64,000 nucleotides of DNA. It comes from Candidatus Poribacteria bacterium (lineage in GTDB: Bacteria; Poribacteria; WGA-4E; WGA-3G). Location: NCBI GenBank assembly GCA_026706025.1, contig JAPOZO010000088.1, forward strand, positions 99,669 through 163,668. The letters run 5' to 3'. Made by a program: the position numbers and the translations under genes. Position 1 is the stretch's first letter. Every line of letters starts with the position of its first letter. Below the pieces are notes generated by a model that saw only the letters and a program-made list of their open reading frames with translations, did not search any database and was not told the DNA's origin. Positions 38,423 to 46,366 of this stretch are shown one piece after another.

Positions 38423-39280
38423 TCATTCAACGTTTTCAGCAAAATAATCGGAATCTACACGTTTGACTTCGTACGTTTTCTCTATGGAAACACCAACATT
38501 GTGTTCGATCATATATTGGGCAAGTTGGTTTCCATCAATAAGAATAATTTTGAAACCTGAAGCATCGTACGCTCTCGCAGCCTTGGTAAAATCTGATGTT
38601 GTGATGAAAATTCCCTTATTAGCACCTTTTCCAGCCAACGCCCCCGCAAACCTTGCAATATCAGGTTCACCAACATTTCCTTCCCACCGTTTTGCTTGAA
38701 CGTAAATCACGTCAAGACCGAGTCTGTCCTCATTAATAATACCATCAATTCCACCATCACCACTGCGTCCTACGGCTTGGGCATCTTCGCGTGAACCACC
38801 ATATCCCATTGCAACGAGCAAATCAATAACTAATTCCTCAAAAAAAGTAGGAGAGTTCTTTTTAATTTGTTGCAGTAATTCTTCCGCTAATTCCTTTCTG
38901 ATTTGCTGATAATTTTCTTCAATGGATTTTTCAGGACGTTGGTTACCTTCTCCAATCCCAAGGTTTTCCCCAGAGTCAGGTAGGTCCCCACTAGTTCCAG
39001 CGTTTAGATCAGGCGCAGAAATTTCTTCTACGCTTTGACTTAAAACATTACGTCCGAGAGCTGTTATTCGGTAATGCCGTTCTCTGGATCGCTCTATGAG
39101 TCCTTTACGACTCAAGGATTTTTCCATCTGTCCACTTTTACCTAGTTTCCTCCTTTCATCCTCGGTAAGCGAAAAATGTTCGGTAAGCATTTTTATAATA
39201 CTCAAGCGACGGTATTCTTGACCGTTAGCTATGTGCTGAAGAACAGGTAGAGTCATTTCGTCAGTAGATGGTATAGGCAT
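38423..39280 (-). CDS. Mrr-like restriction endonuclease
   Basis: The 285-residue protein has an N-terminal winged-helix Mrr_N-type domain (residues ~10-85, LPVLQHIANGQEYRRLSII). The C-terminal endonuclease domain carries FEELVIDLLVAMGYGGS, GRSGDGGIDGIINED and YVQAKRWEGNVGEPDI, the D...QxK active site of the Mrr branch of PD-(D/E)XK enzymes. Mrr cleaves methylated DNA in E. coli. The ATG at 39280 has GGAG upstream at about 12 bases; an earlier TTG at 39304 is weaker. The gene sits alone beside repeat-rich DNA. Confidence 0.85.
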   Translation of the reverse strand: MPIPSTDEMTLPVLQHIANGQEYRRLSIIKMLTEHFSLTEDERRKLGKSGQMEKSLSRKGLIERSRERHYRITALGRNVLSQSVEEISAPDLNAGTSGDLPDSGENLGIGEGNQRPEKSIEENYQQIRKELAEELLQQIKKNSPTFFEELVIDLLVAMGYGGSREDAQAVGRSGDGGIDGIINEDRLGLDVIYVQAKRWEGNVGEPDIARFAGALAGKGANKGIFITTSDFTKAARAYDASGFKIILIDGNQLAQYMIEHNVGVSIEKTYEVKRVDSDYFAENVE

Positions 39281-39420
39281 CTTTATCAAAATCTCCAATA
39301 TCAATTAAAATTTTCTACGACTTTTCGCACTATAATAGTTTCAAAAATGTCTTAAGAGCATAACACATCTAATCTATTTGCCAAGGAATTTCGTTTGACA
39401 CTCAGGGATATTGAACGTGC

Positions 39421-40118: not shown

Positions 40119-40889
40119 ATGCGACTGATTTTTTTCATGCTGTGTGGTATCTTTATCCTATTCGGATGCGGTTCCGATGAAATGCCCGCGCCGATAGTGC
40201 AGCAGATGCCGAACTACTTTCCCGATACTGTCGGCAGCAGATGGGTCTATCGGAACGCCGATGGATCCGAGTGGTCGCGAGAGGTTACTGATGGAAATAG
40301 TATTCACGGAGAGGGCTTTCAGGTTTTTACCTACACACCACCGGTTACTGAAACGGAGTTTGACTATCTGAAACCCGATGTTTTACGCGTTACGGATAGC
40401 CAAGTATTATTCGTCATCGGTGAAAAGATAGAGCGTTACGTTCAAAGTGAACTGCCTGCTTCGGTTGCAGACGAATTCGCTGGCTTGGAACTGGATATCA
40501 CTGTAGAGCCGATCACACACCCTGAATTTGTTTTTTGCCAATTGCCGTTGACTCCCAATTTCCAGTGGGATGCCCTCAATACGAATGTCAATGGAAGCAT
40601 TATTTTGCAGAACCTTGTGCTGCTGCAGTTCCCTTTCGCGGTACACGTGAGTGTTAAGGGTGAGGTTGTTGCCATAGGTTCACTTGAGACCCCTGCCGGA
40701 AGTTTTGAGGAAACGTATCAGATCGAATATCAGACAGAAATCACGCAGACGCTCTTCTCAGAGGCAGAAACAACGCAGCAGCGTCAGAGGGTATGGTTCG
40801 CTCCACACGTCGGCATTGTCAAGATTGAGGGTGAAAATGGTATAACTGAATTAATCGCGTATACCTTCCCAGAAATAATCGAAAATTAG
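40119..40889 (+). CDS. Lipoprotein of unknown function
   Basis: The 256-residue protein has a type-II signal peptide with the lipobox LFGC (residues 14-17 of MRLIFFMLCGIFILFGCG), so it is lipid-anchored. The mature part is all-beta: NYFPDTVGSRWVYRNADG at ~32, then repeated strands to ~240 ending with GIVKIEGENGITELIAYTF. The YFPDTVGSRWVY opening is a recurrent start of secreted beta-sandwich proteins of unknown role. The gene follows a remnant of a thioredoxin gene by 1 bp, so it may have inherited its promoter and ribosome site. Confidence 0.75.
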   Translation: MRLIFFMLCGIFILFGCGSDEMPAPIVQQMPNYFPDTVGSRWVYRNADGSEWSREVTDGNSIHGEGFQVFTYTPPVTETEFDYLKPDVLRVTDSQVLFVIGEKIERYVQSELPASVADEFAGLELDITVEPITHPEFVFCQLPLTPNFQWDALNTNVNGSIILQNLVLLQFPFAVHVSVKGEVVAIGSLETPAGSFEETYQIEYQTEITQTLFSEAETTQQRQRVWFAPHVGIVKIEGENGITELIAYTFPEIIEN

Positions 40890-42090: not shown

Positions 42091-43383
42091 ATGAAAACCA
42101 AACAGATTGTCCATATACTGACGCTTCTGCTCGCATTAGGAACCGTCGCATTTTTCGTAGCGCGCCCTGAAGCACAAACTACTGAAGACCCTTGGGAAGC
42201 TTGGGTAAACGAACAGACCGAAACTGTGTTAAAGTCTGCTGGCGAAATGGATGCAGCGCGGCGTGCTGAAATGCGTGCCACTATTCGGGAAAAATTTGCA
42301 GCACTCGCCGCAGAACTGAAAAACGAGATCGCGTCGCCACCACAGACCCAAGACTACGCCATCTTGCAGACAACTAAAGAGCTGCGAAACACTTATGACG
42401 AAGGGTACAACCAGAAACACAAGGATACCACCGTCCGCGTGTCCTACACGGCAGGTGATACTGAAATCTTTGCGTATCATGAAAATATCCCGCTCGTCGA
42501 AGTCGATGCGAAATATCCGCGCGACGCATGGCTCCAGATGCTACTCGACAAAGGGATCACAATCAAAAACGCAGAGGCGTATTGGGAATATCTGTTCCTT
42601 CGGGATACCTTAGTGCATCTTGAAAGACAGCCACAGGTATGGACATCCGGACTTTTCGAGATCCCAGCAACCGAGGATTGGGAAACCTATAAAGCTGCCT
42701 ATATTGAGCGAGAACTCGGTCAGATTGAAAAGCGATTGAAAAAAGGACAGCTGGCGCGGGTTTTCAATATTGACGAAATCGTAAAAGAGCACCACCGTCA
42801 TTTAGGAAAAGATGATGTCCCCGAGAAATTGTTTCGATCTCTACACGACTTTCCTAAAGAGATACCCTCGGTTGAGTTTAAGAAGCGCATTATTGTAGTG
42901 CCGCAAACTGTCAAAACACTGCAAGACGCTTACGACGAAAAGTACAACGAAAGGTATGCCATCACTTCTGGAAGTGTCAGCTATACACTCGACAACGGTA
43001 TCAATTTTAAGTATAGTGTCCCGCTTCCGATGAGCGAAGTAGATGCAAAATACCCGCGGGATGAATGGCTCCAGATGCTCCTTGATAAAGGCATTACCAT
43101 TGACAACTTTGAAGAGTACTGGACATATCTATCAAAACGGGATGAATTGGTAGAACTTGAGAAACATCCAGAGGTTTGGTCTTCCAGCCTTTTCGGTATT
43201 TCACCGACTGATCATTGGGAAACTTATAAAGCCGCCTACTTGAAGCAGATGTTTGAGAAACTCCACGACAAGAGAAAGAATGCGGTTTATTTTGGCAAGG
43301 TTGACGCAGAAGAGGCACTCAAGCAATCACGAGCGTTAATTGAGCGATTAGAACGGTCTAAGCCTTCGCTACGCGACCGTTAG
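42091..43383 (+). CDS. Secreted protein with two copies of a DAKYPRxxWLQMLL module
   Basis: The 430-residue protein starts with a signal peptide (QIVHILTLLLALGTVAFFVARPEAQ). It contains two copies of one ~115-residue module. The first (about 92-210) has LRNTYDEGYNQKH, VDAKYPRDAWLQMLLDKGITI, RDTLVHLE and DWETYKAAYIERE. The second (about 275-390) has LQDAYDEKYNERY, VDAKYPRDEWLQMLLDKGITI, RDELVELEKHP and HWETYKAAYLKQM. I recognise no known domain. The gene at 45617 carries a third copy. A bidirectional terminator follows the stop at 43383. Confidence 0.75.
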   Translation: MKTKQIVHILTLLLALGTVAFFVARPEAQTTEDPWEAWVNEQTETVLKSAGEMDAARRAEMRATIREKFAALAAELKNEIASPPQTQDYAILQTTKELRNTYDEGYNQKHKDTTVRVSYTAGDTEIFAYHENIPLVEVDAKYPRDAWLQMLLDKGITIKNAEAYWEYLFLRDTLVHLERQPQVWTSGLFEIPATEDWETYKAAYIERELGQIEKRLKKGQLARVFNIDEIVKEHHRHLGKDDVPEKLFRSLHDFPKEIPSVEFKKRIIVVPQTVKTLQDAYDEKYNERYAITSGSVSYTLDNGINFKYSVPLPMSEVDAKYPRDEWLQMLLDKGITIDNFEEYWTYLSKRDELVELEKHPEVWSSSLFGISPTDHWETYKAAYLKQMFEKLHDKRKNAVYFGKVDAEEALKQSRALIERLERSKPSLRDR

Positions 43384-43405
43384 CGTCCGTTGAATTTGCA
43401 AGAAA

Positions 43406-43433
43406 AGGCGAGGTCCGCGGACCTCGCCTTTTT
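43406..43433. terminator. Strong bidirectional rho-independent terminator
   Basis: A 24-nt perfect palindrome (43406-43429, AGGCGAGGTCCG with its inverse) is followed by a T-run to 43433 and preceded by four A bases. It ends the forward module gene and can also end the convergent Cache lipoprotein gene. Confidence 0.85.
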
Positions 43434-43475
43434 ATTTTAACGTATAGCGCGGCTTCAATCTCCGCCATAGATCGG

Positions 43476-44453
43476 CTAATTTCCTGCTGGCATGGAATCT
43501 TCCACGACTGACACAGCATCTTCCGTTAGAGACACGGAATCTTCCGCCATAGGTTTATAATATCCTGAAGCAAAAAGGTAACCATCGTGGCGGATTGGCC
43601 ACGTGCGCTTCATTTCATTCATGCCACTTTCAGGATTGGGCCATAAGTACTCAATCCAGTGTCCTGTCCCCGTTGCCTTGGCGATCTCTGCCCCTAAAGC
43701 CGATCCATCAAGTCCCATGACATCCTTCAGATCCGTTCCTACCAATTCCTGCATCGGTGCATGCGAAACGAAGGTATCATTTGCATCCGTGATGAACACA
43801 TACCACTGTCCGTCAACACTTGCCGGGGCGTTGTAGTAGGCTGCCGTAGCATCGAGCCCTTCAGATTCATAACGTGCGACCGCTGCCAAGACAAAGGCGT
43901 GCGCAAATGCCTCTGGATCATCTTTTGAGTCTATAAGAATCGTCGCGGGATCAGGACTCCACGGTTCATAGTACCCGGAAGCGAAAAGGTAGCCATCGTG
44001 ACGAATCGACCACGTACGCTTCTGTTCTAATTTGTTAGTTTCTGGATTAGGCCACAAGTACGCAGTCCAACGTCCATCTTCTGTCGCCATAGCGATCTCT
44101 AAACCTGTTAGTGCCCCGTCAACTCCAGAAATCTTGGTTATATCTCTACCAACGAATTCGGGTTTCGCCGGATGCGCGACATAGATATTATTTTCATCAG
44201 CAATGAACACATACCACTGCCCGTCAATACGCATTGGGTCATTGTAATAGGCTATCGCCTCGCTACCTTTTGTTGTGTAGAGATCGACCGCTCCTTGCAC
44301 AAGAGCAACTGCAAACGCCTCCGGATCATCCATTGTCGGCATCTCAGTCGGTGTGACGGCATCCATCATCGATTCCGTCATCGGTCTATCACAGCCAGTG
44401 ATACTAACTGTTGTGAGTCCTATCATCAGTAAAATCAACAAAAAATTTCTCAA
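43476..44453 (-). CDS. Lipoprotein with duplicated Cache-like sensor domain
   Basis: The 325-residue protein has a lipobox (SITGC near residue 21). It contains two ~115-residue repeats with DPEAFAxALVxxAVxxYxxxG, YNDPMRIDGQWYVFIADENNIYVAHPAKPEFVGRDI, TYLWPNPE..KRTWSIRHDGYLFASGYYEPW, and matching second-copy text. This is the single-Cache-type ligand sensor fold seen outside the cytoplasmic membrane. As a free lipoprotein without a signalling domain it may be a binding protein. The start is a TTG at 44451-44453 with GAGGA 8 bases upstream. A perfect consensus promoter sits at 44496-44524. Confidence 0.78.
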   Translation of the reverse strand: MRNFLLILLMIGLTTVSITGCDRPMTESMMDAVTPTEMPTMDDPEAFAVALVQGAVDLYTTKGSEAIAYYNDPMRIDGQWYVFIADENNIYVAHPAKPEFVGRDITKISGVDGALTGLEIAMATEDGRWTAYLWPNPETNKLEQKRTWSIRHDGYLFASGYYEPWSPDPATILIDSKDDPEAFAHAFVLAAVARYESEGLDATAAYYNAPASVDGQWYVFITDANDTFVSHAPMQELVGTDLKDVMGLDGSALGAEIAKATGTGHWIEYLWPNPESGMNEMKRTWPIRHDGYLFASGYYKPMAEDSVSLTEDAVSVVEDSMPAGN

Positions 44454-44495
44454 TTTTTGATTCCTCTTTTAGTCAATAAAATTTAGTTCACTTTA

Positions 44496-44524
44496 ATTAT
44501 AATCACTTACTCCGCGATTGTCAA
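44496..44524 (-). promoter_or_regulatory. Consensus sigma70-type promoter for the Cache lipoprotein
   Basis: On the reverse strand TTGACA (44519-44524) and TATAAT (44496-44501) match both consensus hexamers exactly with a 17-bp spacer. The predicted start is about 35 bp before the TTG start codon at 44453. Confidence 0.8.
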
Positions 44525-44608
44525 ACGCGTCAATTTTTTTCTTGTTATTTTTTCCACAATAGGATAAATTCTGTCGGAATAAACAAACACTGTACCGAAA
44601 ATGGAACT

Positions 44609-45439
44609 ATGAATCTTCTCCCTTACGATTGGATTGCTATTGGGTATTTAGTACTCACCGGTGTACTCATTTTAATCTTTCACAAAAATGTCGCGCGCTG
44701 GTATCTCTATCTGTTCGCACGCGTGCTCTGTATCACAGGCATTGTATTACTGACACCCACTGACGCATCTACGCTATTTCCTTTCCGATTCCTGCGGGAT
44801 TGGTACCCGTTATCCACTATCGCGCTTTTCTATTTCGAGATGGGGAAGTTGACTCAGATGGTGTTTCAACGCTATTTCGATGAAACGGTAATCCGCTGGG
44901 AAAAACAGGTTTTCAAAGGGATGCCAAGTCTTGAACTTAGTGACCGTTTTCCATCTATAATTCTATCGGAAATTTTACATCTCTGTTATTTTAGTTACTA
45001 CGTCATCGCCGTGTTTTTAGCGGTGTGGCTCTATTTCAAAGGAAAAATAGGACCGTTTCAAGAGACAGTTTTCGCGGAGACATTAACATTTAATCTAAGT
45101 CTCCTCTGTTATCCGTTTCTACCTGTCACCGGTCCCCGCTACCTTTTTGAAAAGATTCAAGGTCCATTGTCGAAAGGTTTTTTCTTTAGACTGACCCATT
45201 CGGTTGTCTCAAGAGGTTCCTCGAAAGGCACGGCATTTCCGAGCGCACATGTCTCGTTATCAGTGATTGTGCTGCTCTGTGCATTCCGTTATGATAGTAC
45301 AGCGTTCCTGATTCTACTACCGCTGTGTGTAGGTTTGACACTTGGCACGGTTTACTGTAGATTCCACTATGCGATTGATGCGCTCTTAGGCGCAATTTTA
45401 GCTGGCATCGTCTTCGGTATCACAACCATACTCTTTTAA
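44609..45439 (+). CDS. PAP2-family phosphatase
   Basis: The 276-residue integral membrane protein has six or so helices and the two late PAP2 motifs: GTAFPSAHVSLSVIVLL with the catalytic His, and CRFHYAIDALLGAILAGI. It probably removes a phosphate from a lipid, such as phosphatidic acid or undecaprenyl pyrophosphate. The long N-terminal region (first ~120 residues) and CYPFLPVTGPRYL place it with inositolphosphotransferase/AUR1-like members. No clear ribosome site is visible at the start. It runs toward the lipoprotein gene at 45617. Confidence 0.82.
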   Translation: MNLLPYDWIAIGYLVLTGVLILIFHKNVARWYLYLFARVLCITGIVLLTPTDASTLFPFRFLRDWYPLSTIALFYFEMGKLTQMVFQRYFDETVIRWEKQVFKGMPSLELSDRFPSIILSEILHLCYFSYYVIAVFLAVWLYFKGKIGPFQETVFAETLTFNLSLLCYPFLPVTGPRYLFEKIQGPLSKGFFFRLTHSVVSRGSSKGTAFPSAHVSLSVIVLLCAFRYDSTAFLILLPLCVGLTLGTVYCRFHYAIDALLGAILAGIVFGITTILF

Positions 45440-45482
45440 CGCTCAATCGGCCTCTGTCTTTTATCTCAACACTGCTTTTTCC

Positions 45483-45512
45483 TTGACAGTTTTTTGGATA
45501 GCATAGTAAACT
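45483..45512 (+). promoter_or_regulatory. Candidate promoter for the second DAKYPR-module gene
   Basis: A consensus TTGACA (45483-45488) is followed 18 bp later by TAAACT (45507-45512), upstream of the ATG at 45617. The -10 match is weak. Confidence 0.35.
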
Positions 45513-45616
45513 TAACAGGGTCGTCAAATACAAGTGCTCTTCACGAAAAATTTCCCCGAAATGTAGAAAATAAAACCTCGTTTCAAATGCCCTTGATTGA
45601 GAAAAGGAGAAAATTC

Positions 45617-46366
45617 ATGAAACACATTGTGCTAACGACGCTACGCCTGCTCATTGTCGGAATTGCTTTTATAGGGTGTGGCGCGATATCGGATCATGAG
45701 ATGTGGAGGTCGAATTTTGCGGCACCTACCAAGAAATATACCGGACCTCAAACTGTTGAAGCTCTCATGGAAACGTTTGATGAGAGATACACTTCTCACG
45801 CATCAAACGCAAAGTGGGCAGCAGGTATTGAGACAGCCCATAGTGAAAAACGCCACATCGCGTTTACACTCGTAGATATGGATGCTAAATACCCACGCAA
45901 AGAATGGCTGCAAATGCTCCTCAATAAAGGCATTACGATAGAGACTTTCAAGGCTTATGACGGATACTTCAATATACGATCGGCTCTGATCTTGAAAGAA
46001 TTTTACACCGAAGATGATTGGGAAACGGTTAAAGCAGAATACATTAACACCGAAATCCAGAAATGTCAACAGAAGTATCAAGTAAAACCAGAGACAGAAG
46101 AAGATTGGGTTGTGTTCGGTGAAAACAGACTACCCGCTATTCCAGGAAGAATCTATTTACAAAAAAGCGAGTCAGGACATCGGATCTGGCACATGACCGC
46201 TTCTGAGAAAAAAGAAACGGTGAATGGAGAAGTAATAGTGCTTAATAAGAGTCCAGTACTCTCCGAAGAACAGCAGTCTAATCTCGTAAATGACGGTGTG
46301 GAACCCGTGGGCTGGGAAGTTGTGTATTTGGATGCAAAGGGAAACCCTATCCCTTCTGACAAATAA
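45617..46366 (+). CDS. Lipoprotein with one DAKYPRxxWLQMLL module
   Basis: The 249-residue protein has a lipobox (AFIGC at ~14-18) after the ATG at 45617, which follows AAGGAG by 7 bases. Residues ~45-150 are the same module as in the 42091 gene: VEALMETFDERYTSH, MDAKYPRKEWLQMLLNKGITIETF, and DWETVKAEYINTEI. The rest differs (SGHRIWHMTASEKKETVNGEV and GNPIPSDK). Two proteins with the same module within 2 kb of each other, one a lipoprotein and one secreted, suggest a shared envelope system. Confidence 0.72.
   Translation: MKHIVLTTLRLLIVGIAFIGCGAISDHEMWRSNFAAPTKKYTGPQTVEALMETFDERYTSHASNAKWAAGIETAHSEKRHIAFTLVDMDAKYPRKEWLQMLLNKGITIETFKAYDGYFNIRSALILKEFYTEDDWETVKAEYINTEIQKCQQKYQVKPETEEDWVVFGENRLPAIPGRIYLQKSESGHRIWHMTASEKKETVNGEVIVLNKSPVLSEEQQSNLVNDGVEPVGWEVVYLDAKGNPIPSDK

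Follow-up and report, generated by a model that had tools for sequence, protein, structure and literature searches.

An exported module family of Poribacteria associated with ABC-2 exporter genes and ECF sigma factors

The window, a 64,000 nucleotide stretch of a Poribacteria genome, encodes two exported proteins that share a module, here called module A. Module A is a new, constrained and exported module family, and the domain is filed in none of the database families tested. Relatives elsewhere in the phylum are encoded beside ABC-2 permeases or form the C-terminal domain of ECF sigma factors. Based on these observations, we suggest, with a probability of roughly 40%, that module A is a Sec-exported binding or sensor module serving ABC exporters at the envelope and sometimes wired to a sigma factor. 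Poribacteria are an uncultured phylum of dominant sponge symbionts. A module that they have multiplied and tied to both exporters and sigma factors may give a handle on many of their 'hypothetical' envelope proteins, and offers a testable connection between Poribacterial export and gene regulation.

Two module-bearing genes and their locus

The features of the locus are listed in Table 1. In brief, the double-module protein, AA, carries copies 1 and 2 of module A, and the lipoprotein, AB, carries copy 3 followed by domain B. The first-pass annotation had proposed two modules in the first product and one in the second, and open reading frames, MAFFT alignment and iterated HMMs bear this out. 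The three copies align over approximately 115-125 residues. The block DAKYPR-x-x-WLQMLL-x-KGITI is identical in all three except at the x positions, in line with the earlier description of its core as almost invariant. The motif order described for the three copies holds in part: the DAKYPR block is found in all of them, but copy 3 has RSALILKE and DDWETVKAEYI where R(D/S)xLxxLE and DWETYKAAYI were expected. Copy 3, which corresponds to residues 81-193 of the 45494 ORF, is a shorter form that lacks a stretch of about 12 residues, 'xPxxWxSxLFxIxPT', ahead of DWET.

Table 1. Coordinates of module A copies, their carrier genes and neighbouring genes in the window
Feature	Position	Strand	Evidence
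AA, exported double-module protein, 430 aa	42091..43383	+	ORF, HMM matches, hydrophobic N-terminus, dN/dS
AA N-terminal helical segment, putative (DPWEAWVNEQTE...)	42187..42342	+	by eye in printed sequences
Module A copy 1, AA residues 88-213	42352..42729	+	HMM E 5e-54
Module A copy 2, AA residues 270-392	42898..43266	+	HMM E 5e-54; AlphaFold model
AB, lipoprotein, module A + domain B, 249 aa, from ATG 45617	45617..46366	+	
Module A copy 3, shorter form	45734..46060	+	HMM E 5e-39
Domain B (IPGRIYLQK...GVEPVGWEVVYLDAKGNP)	46061..46360	+	HMM E 9e-26
DUF3108-like lipoprotein (context)	40119..40889	+	PF21347 E 7e-8; cluster c7; syntenic in L038, L042
Lipoprotein with two sCache_2-like stretches (context)	43476..44453	-	PF17200 E 4e-18; cluster c16; syntenic in L038, L042
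PAP2-superfamily membrane phosphatase (context)	44609..45439	+	PF14378 E 7e-17; cluster c32; in L042, not L038

Both carriers are exported, one of them as a lipoprotein, as had been proposed. AA has an N-terminal hydrophobic signal or anchor at approximately residues 6-25. The signal peptide of AB ends at the lipobox IGC, with the Cys codon at 45677-45679, and the product starting at 45617 (MKHIVLTTLRLLIVGIAFIGC) shows the hydrophobic segment and lipobox pattern of bacterial lipoproteins. By eye, the helical segment DPWEAWVNEQTE that precedes copy 1 appears to precede the module in four relatives as well (L054, L021, L062 and L132). Domain B has the pattern PGRxYVxR...GxxPxGxEVVYxDExGN. HMM searches found it in 34 distinct proteins, always immediately C-terminal to module A and never alone.

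The dN/dS ratio, calculated in five comparisons for each gene with orthologues or close relatives, is 0.13-0.18 for AA and 0.21-0.33 for AB; both genes evolve under purifying selection. Since relatives of both are conserved in other species at such low ratios, the likeness of the modules is not a matter of chance.

A Cache-like lipoprotein, with two stretches resembling PF17200, and a PAP2 phosphatase lie between the carriers, as first described. Other species (L038 and L042) keep the order ELM1, AA, Cache lipoprotein, AB, DegT. The locus as a whole, including the DUF3108-like lipoprotein and the genes downstream of DegT, is conserved in genomes G001 and G018, with the PAP2 gene in G001 only. 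We did not find an ABC or ECF gene adjoining the modules, or a PF12679 permease anywhere on the window contig, and the window genes are not part of an operon-like array with a permease. The suggestion of a lineage-specific envelope system stands for the module itself, which is exported, matches no family or fold and is confined to one phylum as far as tested. It holds only in part for the neighbouring genes as a system: their order is kept in L038 and L042, but PAP2 is missing from L038, the two carriers belong to different subfamilies, and the main setting of the family is clusters of ABC-2 exporter and ECF sigma factor genes elsewhere.

Two further observations concern this region and its counterparts. 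By eye, the negative-strand product of 38423-39304 in the window resembles restriction endonucleases of the Mrr type and seems to begin with a winged helix at its N-terminus. At another locus (L049:3954-5219), an ECF sigma factor has a C-terminal region that by eye resembles the DUF3108-like lipoprotein of the window, and it is encoded directly upstream of an AB lipoprotein; both window components thus recur, here with a sigma factor.

Fold, distribution and subfamilies of module A

Searches of Pfam-A and NCBIfam gave no family over the curated cut-off for either window protein or for modules A and B, with E-values up to 1 considered. The best match below cut-off in Pfam was GH49N (score 15.5 bits, cut-off 21.3, E 0.014), an identity that we rejected on account of both the score and the wrong fold class. 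Sigma region 2 and region 4 are absent from both window proteins according to Pfam, and no module protein matched an sCache or dCache profile; only the neighbour at 43476-44453 does. Profile searches found no sequence relatives in the PDB. In the literature searched for Poribacteria together with sigma factors or domains of unknown function, we found no description of module A.

An AlphaFold2 model of the second window module (residues 264-405), built from a 40-row alignment, is confident (pLDDT 86.4, pTM 0.78). In this model a long helix is followed by a beta hairpin, which lies in the variable insert, and then by a helical core and another long helix at the C-terminus. The model of modules A and B together has a pLDDT of 81 and a pTM of 0.61; the A part is good and the B part, mainly beta, is fair. 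Foldseek searches of the PDB with module A gave nothing at E<=0.001, the best rows having TM-scores below 0.4, and neither BFVD for module A nor the PDB for the A+B model yielded a matching fold. The first-pass annotation, which knew of no family with this signature, is thus upheld by sequence as well as fold searches. It had named low structural confidence and a lack of homologues outside the contig as grounds for abandoning the idea; we obtained a pLDDT of 86 and homologues in 63 of 85 genomes of the phylum.

Across 40 diverse modules one Tyr and one Arg are invariant, and Q, L, D, Y, W, L, L, G and L, scattered along the module, are nearly so. An invariant Tyr and Arg without a catalytic-looking set suggests conservation for binding or structure and gives no obvious active site. 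We consider it scarcely likely that module A is an enzyme domain of a new class acting on envelope polymers. A domain with no known fold leaves room for catalysis, and the weak GH49 N-terminal match could be taken as a hint of it, but that match spans 48 residues of an Ig-like domain while the module model is mainly helical, and the module has no conserved His, Ser or Cys and no conserved acidic pair, only the invariant Tyr and Arg and structural residues.

The 63 genomes that encode the module include 58 of the 59 in the window's own family; outside it, carriers are scattered over three other Poribacteria families. There are up to 15 module matches per genome, and six in the genome of the window. 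When 84,980 species genomes were scanned with two peptide patterns, all 14 confirmed loci were in Poribacteria; with patterns of this kind, distant relatives may still occur elsewhere. The searches made of viral contigs and plasmids gave no module relative. As far as tested, the module is restricted to the phylum Poribacteria.

In a tree of the modules, based on an alignment of 126 columns and therefore of limited use for deep branches, the AA and AB modules fall in different old subfamilies. The AB lipoprotein groups with other AB lipoproteins with 100/100 support. Copies 1 and 2 of AA both have conserved counterparts in a second genus of the family (L120), and since each is found across two genera, the internal duplication of AA is old. 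We rejected local tandem duplication as the source of all three copies, given this conservation of copies 1 and 2 and the placement of copy 3 in the AB subfamily; AA and AB, with modules from different old subfamilies, did not arise from one another locally.

Exporter genes and sigma factors around module genes

The neighbour clusters of 40 relatives showed that module genes are flanked by genes for proteins of approximately 470 residues, which are ABC-2 permeases of family PF12679. In four genomes, three of them single-contig and one nearly so, such a permease lies at most 2 kb from 11 of the 18 module genes, where 0.45 would be expected at random positions; the maximum reached in 200,000 random placements was 7. 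For 30 of the 37 single-module genes with enough flanking sequence, a permease gene lies no more than 2.5 kb away, always on the strand of the module gene. The other three module genes in the genome of the window all lie beside a PF12679 permease, and the pattern is repeated, as larger arrays, in other genera of the same family. One locus (L117) encodes, on one strand, three exported module proteins, four permeases, an ECF-module protein, three permeases and an ATPase; L121 is similar. In relatives of the lipoprotein's own subfamily (AB relatives, L081-L083), ECF and ABC-2 genes are found within 2.5 kb. PF12679 permeases number 22 to 62 per genome in G000, G018, G005, G021 and G010 and often form tandem arrays.

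It should be noted that these linkage counts are not independent events, since the clusters have been partly inherited through duplication. Such duplication inflates the counts, and for this reason two other explanations stay serious. One, which we regard as unlikely, is that duplicating ABC-2 clusters simply carried the module gene along, and that its product serves some unrelated purpose at the envelope or towards the host, for instance in the sponge. The huge expansion of PF12679, the likeness of paralogous clusters and the lack of a permease neighbour at the window genes and most AB genes all speak for this. The strand agreement in 30 of 30 cases, the recurrence across several genera of one family and several module subfamilies, and the repeated origin of ECF fusions speak against passive carriage.

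The second explanation is structural: the secreted single-module proteins would bridge ABC-2 permeases to outer-membrane TolC, and the window copies would be an envelope scaffold. Many ABC-linked members have long helical C-terminal tails of the ERAKAQIERSK type, which could form coiled coils, and at three loci (L119, L129 and L131) the module genes are adjoined by genes for an ATPase, a NEW3-domain membrane protein (cluster c13) and TolC. Most module clusters, however, lack TolC, the window members lack the long tails, Pfam gives no similarity to known adaptor families, and fusion to a sigma factor is unexpected for a scaffold. We therefore consider an adaptor role, too, to be an unlikely explanation.

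An N-terminal hydrophobic signal is present in 32 of the 37 single-module proteins. It is very unlikely that the ABC-2 systems secrete them as cargo or effectors, as the many secreted copies encoded beside permeases might suggest: with a signal of their own, Sec export is the simpler route, and the sigma fusions are not exported. Nor is module A a detached permease loop, given that profile-profile comparison shows no similarity to segments TM5-6 and TM1-2 of the linked permeases; this lack of similarity neither supports nor weakens a role for the module with exporters.

Three loci (L044, L065 and L066) encode an ECF sigma factor that carries the module as its C-terminal domain. In L065 Pfam finds sigma regions 2 and 4 in the module-bearing protein, and in L044 and L065, where this was checked, one membrane helix separates sigma factor and module. 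These fusions are encoded close to ABC ATPase-domain proteins (cluster c4, Pfam-checked in L065). At four other loci (L117, L121, L123 and L125) ECF-module fusions that match ECF seeds but have no predicted membrane helix are encoded among ABC-2 permeases. The tree requires at least two label changes to account for the fusions, and the branch that joins those with a membrane helix to secreted, ABC-linked modules has 100/100 support. When a domain has been fused to a regulator in two lineages whose exporter clusters also retain unfused copies, this is classical evidence for a functional link. The fusions without a membrane helix place the module in the cytosol, at odds with a role confined to the periplasm.

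Other one-piece ECF proteins were seen in these genomes. Of the 150 sigma-region-4 matches listed for G018, G005 and G010, 78 fall within open frames 850-1300 aa long. In the two proteins examined (L036:11223-14204 and L069:6442-9438), an ECF sigma factor is combined with a propeller of BNR/Vps10 type at the C-terminus, and L036 also has a membrane helix. Each genome apparently encodes dozens of ECF receptors in one piece. An ECF sigma factor inside an ABC-2/module cluster (L118:9226-10080) has an extension that looks, by eye, like a beta-gamma-crystallin repeat. Near module genes, C-type-lectin and carboxypeptidase-regulatory-like domains are encoded at L058:2633-4891 and L043:6722-7963, and at one of these loci they are part of an ECF sigma factor fusion.

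Proposed role and comparison with known systems

We propose for module A the role of a binding or sensor domain, small, largely helical and peculiar to Poribacteria. The exported single-module proteins, encoded with tandem ABC-2 permeases, would act beside ABC exporters at the envelope and bind either the exporter or its cargo. In the fusions with ECF sigma factors, the state of the module (ligand, cargo or exporter contact) would control transcription. AA and the lipid-anchored AB would be envelope-exposed members of the family that keep the binding role at a locus without an exporter. In favour of a sensor serving exporters we count the linkage in 11 of 18 and 30 of 37 genes, the ECF fusions, the neighbours at L081-L083 and the invariant Tyr and Arg without a catalytic set; against it stand the exporter-free window locus, the duplicated clusters and the cytosolic module in one ECF lineage. 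In a bolder and quite improbable version, one new fold would make up a whole circuit for sensing cargo, with the same module on both membrane sides of a dedicated exporter. Exported and lipid-anchored copies would meet the cargo outside, the ECF-module protein would meet it inside or across the membrane, and the sigma factor bearing the module would set exporter expression.

The family is a new domain family within a variant of known arrangements. Cache domains (PF17200/PF08269) resemble module A in setting and size, and a Cache-bearing exported lipoprotein is encoded between the window genes. Module A, in contrast, consists mainly of helices plus a single small hairpin, and it matches Cache domains neither in sequence nor in fold. 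ABC-2 exporter operons with accessory proteins (PF12679, ABC ATPase, TolC) share with the module clusters the same-strand permease neighbours of most single-module genes and, in some clusters, an ATPase, a NEW3-domain protein and TolC. They differ in that the accessory protein is here module A, a domain without a known family, that the permeases stand in arrays and have unusually long TM1-2 and TM5-6 segments, and that the window locus has no exporter. ECF sigma factors with sensor extensions are known both in soluble (ECF41, ECF42) and in transmembrane form (ECF48, ECF52, ECF53, IutY), and the extensions described are SnoaL-like, TPR/YCII, zinc-finger plus TM, and carbohydrate-binding (PMC8999054). 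Some relatives of module A are likewise C-terminal extensions with a membrane helix (as in L044) or without one (as in L117) (PMC8999054), whereas module A is none of the described domains and the window proteins carry no sigma domain.
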